DNA of 64,000 nt from assembly GCA_027483885.1 (NCBI GenBank), contig JAIXTO010000071.1:1-64000 (forward strand), read 5' to 3'. This stretch comes from Rhizobiaceae bacterium. Its GTDB lineage: Bacteria > Pseudomonadota > Alphaproteobacteria > Rhizobiales > Rhizobiaceae. The translations under genes and the position numbers were made by a program. Under the pieces are notes generated by a model. That model did not search any database. It had not been told where the DNA came from and saw only the letters and a list, made by a program, of their open reading frames with translations. Below, piece by piece: positions 30,336 to 40,809 of the stretch (the first letter of the stretch is position 1; every line of letters begins with the position of its first letter).

Positions 30336-30409
30336 TGGGGAATAGTTCAACGGTAGAACGACGGACTCTGACTCCGTTAATCTTGGTTCGAATCCAGGTT
30401 CCCCAGCCA
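30336..30409 (+). tRNA. tRNA-Gln (CUG anticodon)
   Basis: 74-nt cloverleaf: acceptor TGGGGAA pairs with TTCCCCA followed by G and encoded CCA; D-arm GTTC/GAAC; anticodon stem ACGGA/TCCGT with loop CTCTGAC giving anticodon CTG (reads CAG); T-arm CTTGG/CCAGG with TTCGAAT loop. The 3' end borders an accessory segment, but I find no repeat of the tRNA end further along the window. Confidence 0.96.
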
Positions 30410-31267: not shown

Positions 31268-31354
31268 CTAGATCGGCTTGCCGTTCTCAACACGGACCAA
31301 GGCTAATGTAGCGGCAACACCCAATGCAATTATATATGCGCCACGCATAGACAT
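31268..31354 (-). other. Possible 28-residue hydrophobic mini-ORF
   Basis: ATG at 31354 (second ATG 31348) opens a short frame, MSMRGAYIIALGVAATLALV plus eight polar residues, like a single membrane anchor. It may be the original N-terminus of the broken gene that follows, which is in another frame by one base. Its first codons overlap the TATGC-N5-GCATA operator at 31335-31349. Could equally be chance. Confidence 0.3.
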
Positions 31355-31388
31355 TGCGTGATTTTCATGTTTATATGCTTCATGCATA
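31335..31388. promoter_or_regulatory. Two TATGC-N5-GCATA operators upstream of the PaiB-like gene
   Basis: Perfect inverted repeats TATGC GCCAC GCATA (31335-31349) and TATGC TTCAT GCATA (31374-31388), centres 39 bp apart. The same arrangement recurs at 32905-32954 in front of the MarR and DUF417 genes. The MarR protein encoded at 32380-32892 is the natural candidate to bind, which is inference. The second copy lies 48 bp before the PaiB-like ATG. Confidence 0.75.
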
Positions 31389-31436
31389 CAATTCTTGCAG
31401 CCGTATGAATCCCCAAAAATCAGACGAGGACAGAAC

Positions 31437-32117
31437 ATGCATTATGCTGAATACAAACATACCGACGCAGCACTGATTCAGGCCCTGGTCGAAACATTTC
31501 CATTTGCTGCCATATCCGTGAATGGTGCCGAAGGTCCGCGTATCGCCCACGCGCCGCTGACCTTCCGATCTGGAAACGCCCCGACGGGGGCACTTGAATT
31601 CCATCTGGCAAGGGCAAATCCAATTGCCCGCGACATGAAGACTGGCGTGCCCGTCACGATCCTGGTTCAGGGACCCGGAGCCGCGATATCGCCGAGCTGG
31701 TTCAGCGCGAGCTTTCCAGGACCCGAGTCAGATCGCAGCAGGACGGCCCCAACCTATAACTACATCAGCCTGATCATGCATGGGCGGCTCACATTCATGG
31801 ACGACCCTGCCCTGCAGCGCCAGATCAAAGACCTTGTGATCGCCAGCGAACCGGAAGGTGGATGGCAGACGGAAGAACTGGCGCCCGATCTCTGGCAGGG
31901 CTGGCGCAAGCTCATCCAGGGGTATCGGCTCGAAATCGCGAGCTTCGATCTGACCGCGAAGCTGTCCCCAGGTGACGTCCCGGAAGACAGACGCGGCGTC
32001 ATCGAAGGGTTGTTGAGGCGTGGAGTGCTGGCCGACACCAGCATGGCACATCTCATCGGCGGCTATGATGGCACGTCAGAGACTCTCCAGTCGCTTGTCC
32101 GCTCGTTAAAGCGTTGA
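31437..32117 (+). CDS. FMN-binding negative transcriptional regulator, PaiB family
   Basis: 226-residue split-barrel protein of the PaiB group (flavin reductase/pyridoxamine oxidase-like fold). The ATG at 31437 (MHYAEYKHTDAALIQAL) has GAGGA six bases upstream and is preferred over an upstream in-frame ATG at 31395. Typical segments are ALEFHLARANPIARDM, NYISLIMHGRLTFM and WQTEELAPDLWQGWRKLIQGYRL-type wording shortened here. Bacillus PaiB represses sporulation and protease genes; proteobacterial members are little studied and may be flavin-dependent enzymes. Two TATGC-N5-GCATA sites lie just upstream, suggesting control by the neighbouring MarR protein. Confidence 0.85.
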   Translation: MHYAEYKHTDAALIQALVETFPFAAISVNGAEGPRIAHAPLTFRSGNAPTGALEFHLARANPIARDMKTGVPVTILVQGPGAAISPSWFSASFPGPESDRSRTAPTYNYISLIMHGRLTFMDDPALQRQIKDLVIASEPEGGWQTEELAPDLWQGWRKLIQGYRLEIASFDLTAKLSPGDVPEDRRGVIEGLLRRGVLADTSMAHLIGGYDGTSETLQSLVRSLKR

Positions 32118-32133
32118 CGGTAAAAAGGGAGAA

Positions 32134-32277
32134 ATGACTAAGCCTGGGGTCGTCCCTTCAGCAAAAACAATCGTTTCCGATCCAATGATCGTCGCGATGT
32201 TGCCTTTTGTTGCGCAACCCGTTGCGATCGATCGGCGAGCCGAATTGAACTACGCAGACACATGCGAACGCGGCTAA
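32134..32277 (+). other. Short reading frame after the PaiB-like gene (47 residues)
   Basis: ATG at 32134 is preceded by AAAAAGGGAGAA, a good ribosome site 16 bp after the PaiB-like stop, and runs 47 codons to TAA. The product (MTKPGVVPSAKTIVSDPMIV...) has no recognised motif and may be the surviving N-terminus of a truncated gene. The rest of 32118-32379 shows nothing recognisable. Confidence 0.3.
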
Positions 32278-32379
32278 ACCTATGCTGCATTCTCATGTGC
32301 CGTCATTCCGTACAAGTCATTGCGACCGTTTAGCCAGTGGCTTGACGTGCCAAATGCAGTAGCCTGCTTCGCTCATGTG

Positions 32380-32892
32380 TCATGCTTTTGCCTGGAGGCT
32401 GCAAACAACCGGGCAGTTCGGACAAGAACTGAAATCGCAGAGCCGGCAAACTGAATAGGCGTGATCGAGGTCCTCGACAAAATTCACCAGCAGTTTTTCC
32501 GTCAGCAAGCGATAGGTCTCCCTTTCAACCTGAGTGAGACCATTTAAAGCTCGTGCTATGCGCTCAAAGCGTGAAGACAGAATAGCATCACAGCGCGTGT
32601 CCCCGGCTTCCGTGAGGTGAAGAGCGACAGCCCGGCGATCGCTGGCGCTCGCGTGCCTCATCACAAGGCCATCTGCGACGAGCCGATCCACCAGTCGGAC
32701 GGTAGCAGAATGAGACAGGCCAAGTGCCCGCCGCATCTGCTCGATGGGCATGCCCGGTTCGTGCCGCAACAGCGCTATCGCCGCCGCCGCCTGCCCTTTT
32801 TCGGGAGCCTGGTTTTCTGTTTCGCGCAACACCGCATCAGCGAGTCCCAAGACCAGCGCGCCAATTACATTTTCTGTCTTTTTCTCATCCAT
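32380..32892 (-). CDS. MarR-family regulator with C-terminal cysteine cluster
   Basis: 170 residues. A winged-helix core (PIEQMRRALGLSHSATVRLV, then wing ASASDRRAVALHL) is flanked by dimerisation helices. The last 25 residues contain Cys149, 152, 157, 160 and 164 (CxxCx4CxxCx3C), plus Cys101 in the core; this suggests a redox or metal switch. It is transcribed away from the DUF417 gene, with two TATGC-N5-GCATA palindromes in the 83-bp gap and two more in front of the PaiB-like gene. Autoregulation and repression of both neighbours is inferred. I cannot name a characterised orthologue. Confidence 0.88.
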   Translation of the reverse strand: MDEKKTENVIGALVLGLADAVLRETENQAPEKGQAAAAIALLRHEPGMPIEQMRRALGLSHSATVRLVDRLVADGLVMRHASASDRRAVALHLTEAGDTRCDAILSSRFERIARALNGLTQVERETYRLLTEKLLVNFVEDLDHAYSVCRLCDFSSCPNCPVVCSLQAKA

Positions 32893-32904
32893 ACCGAAAA
32901 TATA

Positions 32905-32954
32905 TATGCACGACGCATAGACATCAAGCAGATTTAATATATGCTTGATGCATA
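32905..32954. promoter_or_regulatory. Two TATGC-N5-GCATA operators between marR-type and DUF417 genes
   Basis: Perfect inverted repeats TATGC ACGAC GCATA (32905-32919) and TATGC TTGAT GCATA (32940-32954), centres 35 bp apart. The spacing and even the flanks (TATATATGC..., GCATAGACAT, GCATACAA) match the pair at 31335-31388. Position between divergent start codons at 32892 and 32976 fits control of both genes. Confidence 0.8.
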
Positions 32955-32975: not shown

Positions 32976-33497
32976 ATGACAAACAAGATTACATCCGTCG
33001 CAGACCGCGCCATCCTTGGCGTCGATCGCATCGTTCCCGCGGCCACGATCACGAAAATCGGGCGCGGCGTTGCCCTGGCCGGAGTGGTCCTTCCGCTCCT
33101 GCTTATTGGCGTTCTCAAGTTTACGCAGATAGAGGTCGATGCCCTCAAACCTCTCATCACAAATACACCTTGGCTCTCGTGGCTCTACCCTGCCTTCGGC
33201 GAGGTGGGCGCGACTGCCCTTTTGGGCACTGCAGAGATTTTCACGGCCATCCTGCTGATCGCGTCTCCCTGGTCGGCACGTGCCGGCGTACTCGGTGGTG
33301 CGATCGGTTCGTTGACCTTTCTCACCACGGTCTCGGTCATGTTCGCGCTCCCGATCTGGTACGCCGAACTTGGTGGCTTCCCCTGGATCAATCCAGTCGG
33401 CCAGTTTCTGCTCAAGGACGTATCGCTGCTCGGCGTCAGCATTTTCATTCTTGGTGAAAGCCTTGCACGTGTCAAAGCCCAGGCCTCGCTGACCTGA
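32976..33497 (+). CDS. DUF417 (YkgB-like) inner-membrane protein
   Basis: 173 residues with four hydrophobic helices; VLPLLLIGVLKFTQIEVDAL, NTPWLSWLYPAFGEVG and GFPWINPVGQFLLKDVSLLG are DUF417 hallmarks. From memory, the DUF417 protein RcrB of uropathogenic E. coli protects against hypochlorous acid and is under a redox-sensing repressor; other DUF417 proteins are uncharacterised. Here the gene lies divergent from a Cys-rich MarR gene with shared operators, compatible with an oxidant-induced defence. The link to reactive chlorine is inference only. Confidence 0.85.
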   Translation: MTNKITSVADRAILGVDRIVPAATITKIGRGVALAGVVLPLLLIGVLKFTQIEVDALKPLITNTPWLSWLYPAFGEVGATALLGTAEIFTAILLIASPWSARAGVLGGAIGSLTFLTTVSVMFALPIWYAELGGFPWINPVGQFLLKDVSLLGVSIFILGESLARVKAQASLT

Positions 33498-33600
33498 GCG
33501 CGCATTGCAAACAGGGCAGCATCCTTCGGGTCGCCGATCGCTGTCACGTTCACAGAACTCTGGAAGACTCGACGTTTATCGCAACCCTTATCCTGGATCG

Positions 33601-34258
33601 ATGATGGCATATCTCGAAGACATTTCCATTCCCGGCGTTGCGGTGCTTCTGTTTGCGGGAGCGTTCGCGCTCGGGGTAGCCATTCAGCATGGGTACCACC
33701 TGCGCGGTTCGTGCCATGTCTGATCTCATAAGGGATCGAAGGGCGGATGGATTATTGGGATTTTTCGAGTGTGGCCTATGGGCATTGCTTGTCGCGTGGC
33801 TACTGACGCCAGACATGGCCGTTCCGCGCTGGGAGCCCCTGGGCTCTCTATGCCTCGGAGCAGCTTTATTCGGAGCGGGGGCGACCCTCAACGGCGGCTG
33901 TGCATTCGGTTCGATTGCGCGTCTTGGAGAAGGTCGAGCCGAATTCCTACTGACTGGAGCGGGGGCATACTTTGCCTTTCGCTTCCTTGAAGCGATTGGA
34001 CAAGGCACAGTCGCTCCAATGGAGCATACTCCTGTCCCCGAACATGCCTTGCTCATCGTCGCGCTCGGTCTGCCCGGCCTCATCCTGTTGCGCTTTGCGC
34101 TGTGGAGACGGCCGCTGCGCGTAATTCTTAAGCTGTCATTCCTGATGGGTTTGATCGGAATCATTGGAGCTTTTGTCGGAGCCCTCCATCAGCCTTGGCC
34201 ATGGATGCCTGCGTTGAGACACATCGGGACCTGGCCGCTGGGCAGAAGACGAAACTGA
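33601..34258 (+). pseudogene. YeeE/YedE-family membrane protein, frameshifted
   Basis: ATG 33601 begins MMAYLEDISIPGVAVLLFAG and reads to IQHG, then runs into a stop at 33723. From about 33690 a second frame continues with the expected TTCAVRAMSDLIRDRRADGL and then NGGCAFGSIARLGEGRAEF, the Cys-containing signatures of YeeE/YedE (thiosulfate or sulfur-compound uptake) proteins. One extra base near 33688-33694 explains both frames. The 3' end is also shortened: the frame ends at 34258 inside sequence belonging to the next reading frame. The gene is probably dead unless the indel is a sequencing error. Confidence 0.8.
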
Positions 34259-34777: not shown

Positions 34778-35743
34778 TCAGTAGTTGGCGCTGTAGACCA
34801 GCGGCACCCAGTCGTAGTTCGTCTCGTCGCGCCTCACATGGCCGATGCCCGGAAAGGCGTGATGGGCACCTGCGACCAGATATTTCTGATCGGCGGCCTC
34901 GGCGAAAGCGAGGGAGCGCGTGGCTGCAGCCGTCGTCTGGTCCACGTCGAAGTCGACTGTGACCTCCGGATGGTCATACTGCAGCACATCGCCGTGGGCG
35001 ATGTCACCCCAGAACACAATCTTCTCCCCATGGCTTTCCACGATAATGCCGCTGTGACCAGGGGTATGACCGGCCCGCAGCACCGAGCCGAATCCGGGCA
35101 AGGGAGCGGCATCGTCGGCAAAGGTTTCGAACTTTTTCGCATCGATGTAAGGGCCAACGCATTGCAAGGCCTGTGCGATTTGCGGACCCAGAACTTTGTC
35201 GGCCTTGACCTCGGCATCGGCTTTCAGCCAGAAGTCCGCCTCGCGTTGATTGACGTGCAGGATGGCGTTTTGAAACACCCGCTTGCCATTGGCAACCAGA
35301 CCGCCGGAATGATCGGCATGAATGTGCGTGAGGATGACGTCGTCGATCTGGTCTGCCCGGTAGCCCGCAGCCTCGATGTTGGAGACGAGTTTGCCGAGGG
35401 CCGGCCCCATCAGCGCGCCCGTCCCGGCGTCGATAAGAACGAGCTTCTCGCCGATGTTGACCAGATAGGCGTTGACTGAAATTTCCTGATCCGCCTGGAA
35501 ATGACCGGTCAGATAGGTTTCCGCGTCACTTTCTGTAATGTGCTTGTAGATCTTCGACATCGGAAGCTTCACCGTGCCATCGGAGAGTGCGGTGATCTCG
35601 TAATCACCCAGTTTCATGCGGTAGAAGCCGGCGGCCTGTTTGCCAACCATGGGTGCCTTGGCGAAGGCAAGCGACGGGGCGACGAAAGGTGCGGCAATGA
35701 GGCCGGTCAGGGCGCTTTTGAGAATGGAACGGCGGAATGGCAT
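34778..35743 (-). CDS. Exported metallo-beta-lactamase-fold hydrolase
   Basis: 321 residues. ATG at 35743 follows AAGGA. FRRSILKSALTGLIAAP is a twin-arginine-like signal. The metal site is ILTHIHADHSGG, with GHTPGHSGIIVE and GDIAHGDVLQYDHP. It is a paralogue in type of the protein at 24.5 kb, with the same C-terminal pattern (HHAFPGIGHVRR versus YHMPFPAVGYVEK). The divergent LysR gene 93 bp away probably regulates it. Quorum-lactone or aryl-ester substrates are possible; none can be assigned. Confidence 0.88.
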   Translation of the reverse strand: MPFRRSILKSALTGLIAAPFVAPSLAFAKAPMVGKQAAGFYRMKLGDYEITALSDGTVKLPMSKIYKHITESDAETYLTGHFQADQEISVNAYLVNIGEKLVLIDAGTGALMGPALGKLVSNIEAAGYRADQIDDVILTHIHADHSGGLVANGKRVFQNAILHVNQREADFWLKADAEVKADKVLGPQIAQALQCVGPYIDAKKFETFADDAAPLPGFGSVLRAGHTPGHSGIIVESHGEKIVFWGDIAHGDVLQYDHPEVTVDFDVDQTTAAATRSLAFAEAADQKYLVAGAHHAFPGIGHVRRDETNYDWVPLVYSANY

Positions 35744-35836
35744 GGGATGATCCTTCGGTGACGCGTGGGGAACGGCTTGCAAGTCCATGCCCATCAGCTA
35801 AGGATGTCTTGGTCAGCAAACAAATCGATACCAATC

Positions 35837-36763
35837 ATGCAAGTCATCGATCATTTCAATTTGCGTTCCTTCGACCTCAACCTTCTCGTCGCCTTCGATG
35901 CGATGATGGAAGAGATGAGCGTAACGCGTGCGGCGCAGCGGCTAAAAATCCAACAACCCGCCATGAGCCACAACATATCCACCCTGCGTACGCTGTTTCA
36001 GGATGAGCTCTTTGTCCGTGTCGGACAGGTGATGAAACCCACGGCACGCGCGCTCAACTTGTCCGGCCCCGTGCGGCAGGCCTTGCGACAGGCGCAGGCG
36101 GCAGTGTTGACGGTGGACATATTCGATCCGTCAACCGAGCGGCGCACCTTCCGACTGGGGCTTTCCAGCGAGGTGGAACTGCTACTGCTGCCCGATCTGA
36201 CGGCGCGTCTGCGGGATGTCGCGCCTGGCATTCGCATCCTGGCCCGTGGCGGCGATGCGGCGGAGGTCGATGCGATGATGGATTCAGGGACCATCGATCT
36301 TTCAGTCGGGTGCAGTTACGTACAGGACTCGCGGCACCATTGCGAACCGCTCTATCAGTCCAGCGTCTTGTGCTGTTTCAACCCGCAGATACTAACGCTT
36401 TCCAACCCGGTGAGCCTTGAAGCCTATATGACCGCACAACACGCAGTGATTTCGCAGACTGACAGCCTGCATGGCTGCGTCAAGGATGCACTGGAGCATG
36501 CGGGGGCAGAGCTGGACGTGGTCGCAGCAGCCCCGGATTTTATGTCTATATTGGCCACTGCGCGCTCATCCGCGGTCATTGCAACCGTCTCATCGCGCAT
36601 CGCACTTCGTTACGGACCGGTGCTGGGACTTGAGGTCAGCCCGGTGCCATTGGCGCTTTCTTTTCCACCCGTGGCAATGGTCTGGCCGCTCCATATGGAC
36701 AGCGATCTTGGCTGCGCATGGTTACGGAGCCAAATCCGTGAGGCAATGCTGAGGACAGAGTAG
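35837..36763 (+). CDS. LysR-family regulator, NodD-like branch
   Basis: 308 residues from the ATG at 35837 (MQVIDHFNLRSFDLNLLVAFD), the usual LysR start of the NodD/NahR branch; an upstream TTG-type frame extension is ignored. The HTH is MSVTRAAQRLKIQQPAMSHN, followed by LRTLFQDELFVR. The effector domain contains Cys in SVGCSYVQ, SSVLCCFNPQ and LHGCVKD. It is divergent from the MBL-fold gene, the classical arrangement for LysR regulator and target, so that gene is the likeliest target. Inducer unknown. Confidence 0.88.
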   Translation: MQVIDHFNLRSFDLNLLVAFDAMMEEMSVTRAAQRLKIQQPAMSHNISTLRTLFQDELFVRVGQVMKPTARALNLSGPVRQALRQAQAAVLTVDIFDPSTERRTFRLGLSSEVELLLLPDLTARLRDVAPGIRILARGGDAAEVDAMMDSGTIDLSVGCSYVQDSRHHCEPLYQSSVLCCFNPQILTLSNPVSLEAYMTAQHAVISQTDSLHGCVKDALEHAGAELDVVAAAPDFMSILATARSSAVIATVSSRIALRYGPVLGLEVSPVPLALSFPPVAMVWPLHMDSDLGCAWLRSQIREAMLRTE

Positions 36764-36926: not shown

Positions 36927-37621
36927 TAGGCTCAGGACCTATTAATTTTTGTTACGAATGTGATTCACAGTCTCGATTGCGGAGGCTGGCATGGTTGATT
37001 TGTTTTTGTTGAGCGAGCGGCAGATGACGCGGATCTCGCCGTTCTTTCCACTGGCCCCTGGCGTGCCGCGGGTGGATGACCGGCGGGTCGTCAGCGGGTA
37101 TCGTCTATGTGATCCGCAACGGCTTGCAGTGGAAGGATGCGCCGAAGGCATACGCCCCCCCCACAAGACGCTGTATAACCGCTTCATCCGCTGGAGCAGG
37201 CTCGGCGTGTTCGACCGCACCTTCGCCAACCTCGCCGGGGACGGACTGAAAGCCGAACGGGTGATGATCGACGCCGCCATCTGAAGGCCCACAGGACAGC
37301 GGCGAGCCTCTTAAAAAAGGGACTGTTCCCCGTCGTATCGGGCGCACCAAAGGCGGATTGAACTCCAAGCTCCACACCGTCTGCGACGGAGAGGGCCGGC
37401 CGATCGTCATGCTTTTATCGGAAGGACAGATGCGCGACCACAAGGGCGCCCGCCTTGTCCTCGACGCCCCTCCCCCCGGCAAAGAGCCTAATCGCCGACC
37501 GGGGTTGTGACAGCGCCTGGTTCCGGCACGCGCTACGACCGTTGCGCCCACACCTTCTTCTCAGCCATATGCATCGCTGCGACCGTCATCTTCTGGCTCT
37601 GATCAATGAGTCCTGAGCCTA
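36927..37621 (+). mobile_element. IS5-family (IS427-like) element, degenerate
   Basis: Terminal inverted repeats are visible: TAGGCTCAGGACC from 36927 and its complement TCCTGAGCCTA ending at 37621, flanked by CTA on both sides as a possible target duplication. Inside, ATG 36991 begins MVDLFLLSERQMTRISPFFP, a typical IS5-type transposase, but it frameshifts near 37090 (extra G) and 37160 (expanded C-run), loses bases near 37280, and lacks the C-terminal DDE part after about 37530. About 695 bp remain of what is usually 830-870 bp. It cannot move on its own. Confidence 0.85.
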
Positions 37622-37648: not shown

Positions 37649-38653
37649 TCATTGCGAAACGGTAACCACAACCTTCCCCTTGGCGCGCCCGGTTTCCACA
37701 TAGGCCAGGGCGTCCGCCGTCTGTGCAAAAGGAAACACCTTGTCCACGACCGGACGAATTATACCGGCGTCGATGAGATTGGCGATCTCGCCCAATTGCT
37801 GACCGTCCGCGCGCATGAAGAGGAAGGCGTAGTCGACGCCCCGGGCCTTTGCCTTCTTCAGAATGCTCCGGCTGAGCATTCTCATGACGAAGCGCAGGAA
37901 CAAGTTCAGTTTCAGCGACTTGGCAAAGGAAACATCCGGCGGACCGGAGATCGAGATCAGCTTGCCGCCCGGTTTCAGCACGTTTAGCGATTTTGCCAGC
38001 GTCTTGGCATCCTGGCTGTTCAGCACCAGGTCGTAGCCGGACAGCACCTGCTCGAAGTCCTGCGTCCTGTAGTCGATCACCACATCCGCGCCGAGGCTTT
38101 TGACCAGCTCGACATTCGCAGCACTGGTGGTGGTGGCCACAGTGGCGCCGAGATGTTTGGCGAGCTGTATGGCAAAGGTGCCGACACCGCCGGAACCGGC
38201 CTGGATGAATACCTTCTGACCAGGCCTGACCTTGCCCACGTCGACGAGCGCCTGCCAGGCGGTCAGTCCGACCAGCGGGATCGAGGCTGCCTGTTCCATG
38301 GAGAGGCTTTTCGGTTTCAGCGCGAGATCTGCGGCATCAACTGCAATCATTTCTGCAAATGTGCCGACCCGCTGATCACGCGGACGCGCGAACACCTCGT
38401 CGCCGGTCTTGAAAGCCCGGACATTCGCGCCGACGCGGAGGACCGTTCCAGCCAGATCGTGACCGAGAATGAAGGGCGCGCGATAGGGCAGGAACAGCTT
38501 GAATTCGCCATCGCGCACCTTGGAATCGAGAAGGTTGATCGCGGTGGCCTCGACGCGAACCAGCACATCATTGGCACCGATCTTCGGATCCGGCATGTCG
38601 GCCAGACGCAGCGGGCCTTGTCTCTTGTATTTGTCAACGACGAAGGCTTTCAC
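37649..38653 (-). CDS. MDR-superfamily NAD(P)H-dependent reductase (quinone oxidoreductase-like)
   Basis: 334 residues of the zinc-free medium-chain type: GroES-like N-terminus (ATAINLLDSKVRDGEF, FILGHDLAGTV) and Rossmann motif QAGSGGVGTFAIQLAKHLGA. No structural zinc cysteines. The C-terminal DGQQLGEIANLIDAGIIRPV is characteristic of alkenal/quinone reductases. It is last of a four-gene minus-strand operon (SDR, OYE, SDR, MDR) that faces a TetR gene; reduction of activated C=C bonds or quinones is the common theme. Ends 28 bp from the IS remnant. Confidence 0.88.
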   Translation of the reverse strand: MKAFVVDKYKRQGPLRLADMPDPKIGANDVLVRVEATAINLLDSKVRDGEFKLFLPYRAPFILGHDLAGTVLRVGANVRAFKTGDEVFARPRDQRVGTFAEMIAVDAADLALKPKSLSMEQAASIPLVGLTAWQALVDVGKVRPGQKVFIQAGSGGVGTFAIQLAKHLGATVATTTSAANVELVKSLGADVVIDYRTQDFEQVLSGYDLVLNSQDAKTLAKSLNVLKPGGKLISISGPPDVSFAKSLKLNLFLRFVMRMLSRSILKKAKARGVDYAFLFMRADGQQLGEIANLIDAGIIRPVVDKVFPFAQTADALAYVETGRAKGKVVVTVSQ

Positions 38654-38777
38654 GGGCTTTCTCCGGTGTGAAGTGATTGTCAGTTCAGGCAGTCAGGAAA
38701 GCCAGGGCTTTCGGCACGAACCCGGAATGATATTGGAAGATCCCGCCATGGCCGGCGTTGTCAAAGATCATCAAATC

Positions 38778-39602
38778 TCAGGCAATGTTGAACTGCTTGC
38801 GCAGGATGCGATCAAACAGGGCGCGTGGCAGGAACCGCCTTGCAAACGCGGTCTGCCGGGCCTCTTTGCCCGAGGGATAACGCAGCCGCGGTTTCTTCGC
38901 CTGTGCTGCCGCCAGAATGGTCGCAGCGACATCATCCGCCGTGTCACCAGTCGCCATGGCTGCCGCAAACGCTGCCTGATATCTTGCGAAAGTCTGGCCA
39001 TAGGCGGCGACGGGACGGTCGGCCTTCGGTGAGTTGGATTCGATGGAGGTCCGGGTGGCCCAGGGCTCAATCACGGCGACGCGGATGCCGAACGGGCGGA
39101 CTTCATGATCCAGGGATTCGGAATAACCTTCGATCGCGTGCTTGCTCGCCGTATAATGGGCACCAAACGGACCGGGGATCAGCCCGACGACCGATCCTAT
39201 GTTCAAAATCCGTCCATTGCCGTGCCGGCGCATGATCGGGAGGATCTCGTTCGTCACCCGGACAACGCCCAGGTAGTTGGTATCCAGCAGCGCACGGACC
39301 TGCTCGATGGAACTTTCCTCCGCAGCCCCGGAGATGGCATAACCGGCATTGTTGACCAGGAGGTCGATGCGGCCAAGCTCGGCATGGGCAAGCGCCACAG
39401 CAGCAGAAACGGAGGCATCCGAGGTGACGTCACAGGCGATCATCCGAATGCCGTCGCGGACTTCTCCGGGTGCCGCCTTGCGGCTGGTGCCGATCACCCG
39501 GTAACCCGCCCGGCTGAGCGCCAATGCCGCCGCCTTGCCGATGCCGCTGGAGGCGCCGGTCACGAAAGCGGTCTTCTGTCCTTTTGGTGCAAGGGTCGCC
39601 AT
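38778..39602 (-). CDS. Short-chain dehydrogenase/reductase
   Basis: 274-residue classical SDR: TGASSGIGKAAALAL cofactor motif, NNAGYAISG, catalytic Ser in IGSVVGLIPGPFG and Tyr-x3-Lys in HYTASKHAIEG. Arg after the glycine motif (GTSRKA) favours NADPH. The C-terminal 60 residues are basic (RYPSGKEARQTAFARRFLP). Third gene of the TetR-facing operon, 112 bp after the OYE gene. Substrate unknown; a carbonyl product of the neighbouring ene-reductases is plausible. Confidence 0.9.
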   Translation of the reverse strand: MATLAPKGQKTAFVTGASSGIGKAAALALSRAGYRVIGTSRKAAPGEVRDGIRMIACDVTSDASVSAAVALAHAELGRIDLLVNNAGYAISGAAEESSIEQVRALLDTNYLGVVRVTNEILPIMRRHGNGRILNIGSVVGLIPGPFGAHYTASKHAIEGYSESLDHEVRPFGIRVAVIEPWATRTSIESNSPKADRPVAAYGQTFARYQAAFAAAMATGDTADDVAATILAAAQAKKPRLRYPSGKEARQTAFARRFLPRALFDRILRKQFNIA

Positions 39603-39714
39603 AGCTTTTTTCTCGATGTGGCGCGCGGCATCGGGCAGCGCAGCCTATGAAATTGTCAGGGATTGATGAGGATCGGCATCACGGGGGCCGCACCGAGGTG
39701 CAGCCCCTGAGAAC

Positions 39715-40809
39715 TCAACGGCCGGGAGCTTCGGTGGCGCGGGGATAATCGGTATAGCCCGCCGCCCCACCGCCATAGAGCCTCGCCGGATTGATCTCAG
39801 CCAGCGGCACACCGGTTTGCAGCCGTTCCACGAGATCCGGATTGGCGATGAACGGGCGTCCAAAGGCGATCAGATCCGCCTTGCCATCGGCCAGATGCGA
39901 TGTTGCGAGGCCGAGGTCATAGCCATTGTTGGCGATATAGGTCCTGGTGAAACGGCGGCGCAGCGATGCGTAGTCGAAGGGGGCCACGTCGCGCGGGCCG
40001 CCGGTCGCGCCTTCGACAACGTGGATATAGGCGATGCCGAGCGCCTCGAGCTGATCGACGATATAGTCGTACTGCGCCTGGGGATCGCTGCAAGTGATGC
40101 CGTTGGCGGGAGAGACCGGCGAGATCCGGACCCCGGTGCGCTGAGGCCCAATCTCCTCGGCCACCGCAGCGGCGACCTCAAGCATCAGACGGGCGCGGTT
40201 TTCCACGGAGCCGCCATAGGCGTCGGTGCGCACATTGGCGCCGTCCTTGGCGAACTGCTCGAGCAGATAGCCGTTGGCGCCGTGAACTTCCACCCCATCG
40301 AAACCGGCCGCGATGGCATTGGCGGCAGCCTGGCGGAAGTCGTTGACGATGCCTGCGAGTTCATCGATCTCCAGGGCGCGAGGCTCGGACACATCAACGA
40401 AGGCATTGTTGACAAAGGTCTTGGTCTCGGCGCGAATGGCCGAGGGCGCCACCGGCTGACCGCCGTTGGACTGCAGATCAACATGGCTGATGCGGCCGAC
40501 ATGCCAGAGCTGCAGAACGATGCGTCCGCCCTTTTCATGCACGGCGGCCGTGACCTTTTTCCAGCCCTCGATCTGCGCCTGCGTATAGATGCCGGGCGTA
40601 TCCTGATAGCCCTGCCCCTCCTGCGAAATCTGGGTCGCCTCGGAAATGATCAGTCCGGCTGAAGCCCGCTGGGCATAATATTCCGCAGTCAGCGCGCCCG
40701 GCACGAAACCCGCACCGGCGCGGTTGCGCGTCAGCGGCGCCATGACGATCCGGTTTGCAAGAGGAATGGCGCCGAGGGCGGTGGGTTCGAAAAGCGTATT
40801 GTTGGTCAT
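39715..40809 (-). CDS. Old yellow enzyme-family alkene reductase (NemA-like)
   Basis: FMN-dependent NADPH reductase acting on activated alkenes, nitrate esters or nitroaromatics. 364 residues: IVMAPLTRNRAGAGFVP at the FMN-binding N-terminus, HxxN substrate pair in VEVHGANGYLLEQF, FMN-binding ALIAFGRPFIANPDL-type end, and DAYGGSVENRARL. Length and motifs match NemA and xenobiotic reductases. Second gene of the operon after an SDR, 55 bp apart. In E. coli nemA is controlled by NemR, a TetR protein sensing electrophiles through one cysteine, and the same layout occurs here. Confidence 0.94.
   Translation of the reverse strand: MTNNTLFEPTALGAIPLANRIVMAPLTRNRAGAGFVPGALTAEYYAQRASAGLIISEATQISQEGQGYQDTPGIYTQAQIEGWKKVTAAVHEKGGRIVLQLWHVGRISHVDLQSNGGQPVAPSAIRAETKTFVNNAFVDVSEPRALEIDELAGIVNDFRQAAANAIAAGFDGVEVHGANGYLLEQFAKDGANVRTDAYGGSVENRARLMLEVAAAVAEEIGPQRTGVRISPVSPANGITCSDPQAQYDYIVDQLEALGIAYIHVVEGATGGPRDVAPFDYASLRRRFTRTYIANNGYDLGLATSHLADGKADLIAFGRPFIANPDLVERLQTGVPLAEINPARLYGGGAAGYTDYPRATEAPGR

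Follow-up and report, generated by a model that had tools for sequence, protein, structure and literature searches.

Paired TATGC-N5-GCATA sites shared by a cysteine-rich MarR gene, a DUF417 gene and a PaiB-like gene in a Rhizobiaceae bacterium: a candidate oxidant-responsive circuit

Four perfect sites in two pairs

Four inverted repeats of the form TATGC-N5-GCATA accompany three genes in the window, i.e. the whole 64,000-nucleotide stretch of a Rhizobiaceae contig that was analysed. The genes encode a PaiB-like protein, a MarR-family regulator and a DUF417 membrane protein, and the question arises whether one regulator reads all four sites and to what it responds. The reading that we favour, and consider likely, is that an autorepressing MarR protein with a four-cysteine (Cys4) end would act on the four operators, be released by oxidant and control marR, DUF417 and paiB. 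The evidence and the competing explanations are given below.

The original prediction named four perfect 15-mers, and they were found exactly at 31335, 31374, 32905 and 32940. Operators B1 (TATGCGCCACGCATA, 31335..31349) and B2 (TATGCTTCATGCATA, 31374..31388) stand before the PaiB-like gene, and operators A1 (TATGCACGACGCATA, 32905..32919) and A2 (TATGCTTGATGCATA, 32940..32954) lie between the divergent MarR and DUF417 genes, as had been described; none is assigned to a strand, and their palindromy is restricted to the 5-bp arms. The centre spacings (39 bp in the B pair, 35 bp in the A pair) and the similarity of the flanks were also correct, and alignments of relatives identify the pairs as two homologous promoters. 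The absence of any further perfect copy from the window was borne out by a pattern scan.

The idea that the four sites are chance palindromes can practically be dismissed. One hundred shuffles gave a mean of 0.07 zero-mismatch sites per window (maximum 1) vs the four seen, and the sites are kept in relatives, in both the A-type and the B-type alignments. In the bacterium's own assembly (5,515,789 bases, or 5.52 Mb, in 252 contigs, 96% complete), perfect copies total four, all within 1.6 kb, compared with two matches for the backwards control pattern. Random scatter of the 15-mers through the genome, an outcome that would have spoken against the original prediction, was thus not seen, and this confinement of perfect operators to the window counts for our main reading. 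Sites with one mismatch numbered 84 in the genome vs 55 for the control and are therefore not clearly above background; within the window, 28 sites had at most two mismatches vs 18.7 expected. A wider regulon in the same genome was considered and rejected on the 84 vs 55 count and because the only perfect pairs were the two of the window.

Promoters overlapping the operators

The MarR-family gene (170 aa) occupies 32380..32892 on the minus strand. In the gap between it and the DUF417 gene (32976..33497, plus strand), the promoter scan predicted two divergent promoters coinciding with the A pair, which counts for the main reading. The predicted marR promoter (TTGATG-17-TATATT, 32899..32927, minus strand) holds A1 in its spacer. 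As for the predicted DUF417 promoter (TAGACA-16-TATGCT, 32918..32945, plus strand), its -10 element is formed by the first six bases of A2 and its -35 element overlaps A1 by two bases. The scan taken alone is weak, with three promoter-like sites vs 1.6 expected by chance in the scanned stretch, and this we count against the reading. A1 begins at -27 relative to the marR start codon, which lies 12 bases beyond the operator, so that the marR messenger probably has little or no leader.

For the PaiB-like gene (31437..32117, plus strand), visual inspection of the alignment suggested putative promoter elements: a -35 TAGACA at 31348-31353, which begins with the last two bases of B1, and a -10 TATATG at 31372-31377, which is overlapped by B2. 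They were not among the promoter-scan output and are predicted by similarity only.

Conservation was seen in both pairs. Both operators are retained in all six valid A-type sequences (the L060 row was left out), and so is the intervening CATCAAG, which reads CTTGATG on the marR strand. The A pair is perfect in the window and in relatives L005-L008, L059 and L060. The B-type sequences (n=6) keep TATATGC, GCATAGACAT and TTATATG; in five relatives, one site of the B pair is perfect in 5/5 and the other carries one mismatch in 4/5. As far as sequence can tell, the arrangement is that of MarR-family regulators, with dyad operators on an apparently autoregulated divergent promoter.

A reduced version of a two-module layout

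Plasmid p_1 of Rhizobium leguminosarum (CP050515) carries two related modules. Module A comprises MarR-A and the divergent DUF417a-OsmC-YedE genes (operator spacing 35 bp), and module B comprises MarR-B and the divergent DUF417b-paiB genes (operator spacing 39 bp). The window has neither MarR-B nor DUF417b, and the pair at 31335-31388, with its 39 bp spacing, stands directly before paiB. The DNA just 5' of paiB resembles that just 5' of the L005 paiB, as expected if DUF417b had been deleted. Module A is eroded as well. An OsmC-hydrolase fusion gene follows DUF417a in R. leguminosarum, and a remnant of its C-terminus (33521..33601, plus strand; 27 codons, 63% identity) is left in the window, next to a YedE/YeeE gene (33604..34258, plus strand) broken by an early frame change, with similarity ending at residue 209 of 305. 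Losses are seen in relatives too: L005, L006 and L060 have no intact MarR-B, and L007 has a 20-codon OsmC remnant and a paiB split over two frames. From these comparisons, the window trio is the remainder after losses from the two-module layout. The proposal that the trio forms a regulon is partly supported, as regards the shared sites and the cysteine-rich MarR, but the trio is not the natural unit, given the separate MarR-A/DUF417a and MarR-B/DUF417b-paiB groupings of R. leguminosarum.

Since MarR-B and DUF417b are missing, the B pair might be a relic of their lost promoter, leaving paiB effectively unregulated in the window. The leftward TTGATG -35 element of L006, L008 and L059 is indeed gone in the window, L005 and L060, the last of which retains only 30 codons of MarR-B. 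Moreover, in L007 the contig ends 340 bases before paiB, and those bases contain no site even when two mismatches are allowed, which counts against our main reading. On the other hand, neither B dyad of the window has a mismatch, the rightward TAGACA persists, the paiB gene is intact with its start codon 48 bases from B2, and L005 and L006 keep the pair (one mismatch in one site each) despite the loss of MarR-B. We consider a relic rather unlikely for these reasons, and continue to regard the B pair as a candidate operator of paiB.

The GC content in 1-kb bins is 0.62-0.71 in the four bins before the locus, 0.53-0.59 from 30 to 34 kb and 0.57-0.64 after it. A tRNA-Gln (ctg) gene at 30336-30409 marks the fall, and the locus begins about 0.9 kb beyond it. 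None of seven other sampled genomes of the same genus had an operator pair. The low GC from tRNA-Gln onwards, together with the lack of a pair in these seven genomes, suits horizontal gain, and the 4 kb after the tRNA gene may have been acquired. A tRNA-linked island was rejected, as the window contains the tRNA 3' end only once. Further downstream, at 36991-37284, an ORF shows a sub-cut-off match to an IS4/5 transposase family (DUF4096, 31.7 bits vs a cut-off of 34.3).

The MarR regulator and its C-terminal cysteines

The regulator contains a winged-helix MarR domain (PF12802, 1.8e-10; PF01047, 1.2e-9; both above cut-off). It has cysteines at residues 101, 149, 152, 157, 160 and 164 of 170. 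Four of these form a C-terminal CxxC-x4-CxxC motif (CRLCDFSSCPNCPV), and codons C149-C152-C157-C160 (32413..32448, minus strand) are invariant in alignment A4, which comprises 13 hand-picked sequences including that of the window. OhrR and the MarR/DUF24 thiol-switch repressors carry a sensing cysteine in the N-terminal part. They resemble the window protein in MarR fold, in dyad operators on an autoregulated promoter and in cysteine sensing, which for the window protein is assumed. The regulator is thus cysteine-rich, as had been noted; unlike in OhrR and MarR/DUF24 proteins, all of its cysteines are C-terminal, the first at residue 101, and it lacks the N-terminal cysteine that marks those groups. 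The AlphaFold model is weak, with a pLDDT of 71 and the cysteine region under 50, too poor for judging the Cys4 site, and this is counted against the main reading.

A profile search of 240 genomes of the class returned 13 strong matches including the own one (E <= 3.1e-41), the next match being at 4.5e-18; two of the 13 genes were already contained in A4. All 12 others have the Cys4 end (L082 being the gene of L055). Eight strong matches were new to the operator search: one has a perfect motif, four have sister dyads of the form TRTGN-N5-NCAYA (arms TATGA, TGTGC twice and TGTGT), one has an imperfect dyad and two have none. Counted against our reading are L087 and L088, with Cys4 and no such dyad, and L099, with an imperfect dyad only. 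The Cys4 end itself is incomplete in two relatives, with the last two cysteines missing from MarR2 of plasmid pFBAOT6 and the first from the second MarR of L008, which also counts against.

Measured from the MarR start used, operators begin at -27 to -29 in close members and between -22 and -31 both in the group with DUF3237 neighbours (see below) and in most motif-bearing members overall, which counts for the main reading. When about 160 bases upstream of the gene were scanned and one mismatch was allowed, 7 of 29 non-own MarR loci, most of them with a cysteine-rich end, had a site. The remaining 22, including the closest, L010 (55% identity), have no such site in that stretch, and are counted against.

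Sister dyads with GATGC, TATGA, TGTGC and TGTGT arms were observed upstream of Cys4 MarRs in L013, L014, L098 and L084-L086. LSH in the recognition helix goes with TATGC or TGTGC, LTH with TATGA or TGTGT, and LSQ with GATGC, each in a few cases. In these small numbers, the changes of the dyad arms seem to follow the helix, and the sister dyads, with changed recognition helices in some proteins, might represent a possible specificity code. Upstream of a related MarR in L032 (1963-2003), three overlapping one-mismatch dyads are arranged in 13-base steps.

Operator pairs in other genomes and on plasmids

Two perfect operators 10-34 bases apart were searched for in 394 genomes of the family and 385 of the class. 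Pairs were present in 12 of the former and 6 of the latter, the own genome being in both, which leaves 11 + 5 = 16 others; the backwards control pair pattern gave no match in either sample. A related Cys4 MarR adjoins the pair or lies within about 3.5 kb of it in 12 of the 16, and this counts for the main reading. In the other four (L042, L043, L047 and L052, the last being a repeat array), no such MarR occurs within the 3-kb stretch examined, which counts against.

The neighbourhoods of these pairs differ in content. L039 has the same module as the window. Seven loci (L040, L041, L044, L045, L048, L049 and L050) are LysR/OsmC/MsrA/MsrB/GST islands, with MsrA, MsrB, OsmC and GST present in 7/7, YeeE in 6/7 and DUF417 in 3/7; a DUF417 gene was not seen in the other four, which counts against the main reading. 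Each has a Cys4 MarR within about 3.5 kb. Finally, in L053-L056, from genomes of four families of the class, the Cys4 MarR gene adjoins DUF3237 genes and its tandem operators are spaced 43-45 bp; DUF3237 genes are not known oxidant genes, and we count them against the reading.

Related genes are also found on mobile elements. A tblastn search of a plasmid collection gave 190 records related to the MarR (Citrobacter 55, Klebsiella 36, Enterobacter 28, and others), 161 of them with coverage of at least 80%; identity was 80-90% in two records and under 60% in 188. Of the best 60 of the 190 rows, 58 had an identity of 41.8%, and two such records from Aeromonas/Raoultella were read, pFBAOT6 and pJBIWA001_2. 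On pFBAOT6, genes for MarR, DUF417, YeeE, MsrA (twice), MsrB, OsmC-hydrolase, zinc alcohol dehydrogenase, GST and LysR are present. Sites precede MarR2-YeeE and DUF417, a one-mismatch site precedes MarR, and OsmC/LysR has a perfect and a one-mismatch site before it; the MarR2-YeeE site falls within the MarR2 start as annotated, and ahead of a start codon further on. The second plasmid resembles the first, and MsrA, MsrB, OsmC, GST, YeeE and DUF417 occur on both stretches read. Like the window, these plasmids combine a Cys4 MarR (42% identity), DUF417 and YeeE with TATGC-N5-GCATA sites before several genes. Unlike the window, their operators are mostly single, and MsrA, MsrB, zinc alcohol dehydrogenase, GST and LysR are added; paiB was found neither on the two plasmid stretches read nor in the seven islands. 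Two R. leguminosarum plasmids and the conjugative Aeromonas/Raoultella plasmids thus carry related sets of oxidant-defence genes that the motif marks; on the latter, disinfectant tolerance would matter. As for viral contigs, a search for the promoter layout gave no match, and a protein-profile search gave one, L076 (IMG/VR), with a MarR gene divergent from a DUF417 gene (5.4e-27) and one perfect operator, which counts for the main reading.

These settings bear on two further explanations. According to the first, another regulator, e.g. a LysR-type protein, reads the TATGC-N5-GCATA pairs. The pair lies exactly between divergent LysR2 and OsmC genes in the seven family genomes with islands, and the two pFBAOT6 sites before OsmC/LysR are similarly placed. 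Nevertheless, a Cys4 MarR is close by in every one of these seven genomes, the OsmC gene of R. leguminosarum p_1 follows the MarR-DUF417a operators and has no LysR gene as immediate neighbour, and the motif recurs at the MarR's own start across different settings, all of which makes another reader quite improbable. According to the second, MarR binds the sites and senses a small organic ligand in the classical pocket, with Cys4 being a structural metal site. L053-L056 suit this view, as they place the same type of regulator beside DUF3237 genes, in one case also with a SnoaL-like gene, and so does the spacing of the last two cysteines, which ranges from x2 to x5 among relatives, as a structural site may show. 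Yet the company of MsrA, MsrB, OsmC and GST in 7/7 LysR/OsmC loci and on both plasmid stretches points to oxidants, and we regard ligand sensing as rather unlikely.

Release of the MarR repressor by oxidant is hence the reading that we retain. The predicted oxidant-responsive regulon is supported to the extent that one cysteine-rich MarR probably controls all four sites and that its kin occur in an oxidant-defence setting in seven genomes and on two plasmids.

DUF417 and PaiB-like proteins

The predicted membrane protein encoded at 32976..33497 belongs to the DUF417 domain family (PF04224, 1.3e-28) and is RclC/RcrB-like; against the RclC equivalog itself it scored 61.7 bits (7.8e-17) vs a cut-off of 275. 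It contains no cysteine, and neither does RclC, according to PMC9600549 and PMC12096828. It is further stated there that loss of RclC leads to HOSCN sensitivity (PMC12096828) and that RcrB, an RclC homologue, serves HOCl resistance (PMC12096828, PMC9600549). For DUF417 proteins, the mode of action of which PMC12096828 describes as not known, the locus would supply both an operator and a candidate sensor. Two other papers, PMC8895235 and PMC11578231, were discarded as off-topic, the former having matched just as DUF4177.

The PaiB-like protein has an FMN_bind_2 domain (PF04299, 7.8e-29). Among solved chains, it matches 9KEA (5e-11), which is named LnzB in PMC13274692, PaiB (2OL5, 2.8e-9) and NohD (1.8e-7). 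His56, the heme ligand, and Asn61, Thr106 and Lys175 are found at matching alignment places, the matching residues being named for the piperazate synthase SbPZS and for PaiB in PMC13274692. The same His and Asn/Thr/Lys are present in L005, L006 and L059; L060 has no AKLS string, and its Lys was left out. The label "FMN-binding", used in the original prediction, is therefore doubtful: the protein groups with PaiB, NohD and piperazate synthases, which bind heme, and retains the heme-ligand His along with the Asn, Thr and Lys, so that heme is likelier than FMN. What sets it apart from PaiB, NohD and piperazate synthase is its link to a MarR-DUF417 module. Neither of the two ORFs 5' of paiB matches a Pfam family, so a paiA-like partner was not seen there. 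A PaiB-type protein of this heme family would here gain a testable physiological setting.

Proposed circuit and related systems

From the sites, promoter-like elements, conservation, gene association and gene losses described above, we infer DNA binding, repression, signal, cysteine chemistry and protein functions as follows. A MarR repressor with a C-terminal four-cysteine site would bind all four TATGC-N5-GCATA operators. At 32899-32954, A1 in the spacer of the marR promoter and A2 over the DUF417 -10 element would allow repression of both genes, and at 31335-31388, the homologous pair would cover the putative paiB promoter and repress it likewise. An oxidant, i.e. reactive chlorine or a similar thiol-reactive species, might then oxidise the Cys4 site, whether metal-bound or as free thiols. 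The oxidised repressor would leave DNA, and marR, DUF417 (RclC/RcrB-like) and paiB (heme-family) would be expressed together. The locus would represent a reduced form of an oxidant-defence module of two divergent MarR-DUF417 pairs with relatives on plasmids, and the circuit looks real, small and partly decayed.

A broader and clearly more tentative scheme, which we doubt will hold in full, is that of a mobile, little-described Cys4 MarR family. Its members would sense reactive chlorine or related oxidants via a zinc or iron-sulfur centre at the C-terminal Cys4, bind TRTGN-N5-NCAYA dyads that track the recognition helix and induce DUF417; in the window, a heme-dependent PaiB-type enzyme, which might detoxify N-chloro or N-hydroxy compounds, would be induced along with it.

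Redox repressors of the MarR type, DUF417 proteins and PaiB proteins all belong to known kinds. A group of MarR proteins with a C-terminal Cys4, tied to this operator and to DUF417/PaiB, was not found in open-licence PubMed Central papers among the matches listed, and PADLOC gave no match for the MarR, DUF417 and PaiB-like proteins. The systems nearest in design are RclR-rclABC of E. coli and RcrR/RcrB of uropathogenic E. coli, which serve defence against reactive chlorine and HOSCN; in them too, a redox-sensing regulator controls a membrane protein of the DUF417 family (PMC9600549, PMC12096828). In contrast to them, the regulator in the window is a Cys4 MarR, and PaiB-like, OsmC and YedE genes or their remnants take the place of rclA and rclB as partners.

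Other genes lie downstream of the module. At 34778-36763, a gene for an MBL-fold hydrolase related to AidB lactonase (172 bits vs a cut-off of 360) is divergent from a BsrA/LeuO-like LysR gene; the pair also occurs on plasmids of Sinorhizobium, Rhizobium, Pararhizobium and Neorhizobium, with 75.8-78.0% DNA identity among the matches listed. Genes for a zinc-type dehydrogenase, a short-chain dehydrogenase and an old-yellow-enzyme-type protein (Oxidored_FMN, 1.2e-80) are located near the module at 37649-40809, and are possibly further electrophile-defence genes.
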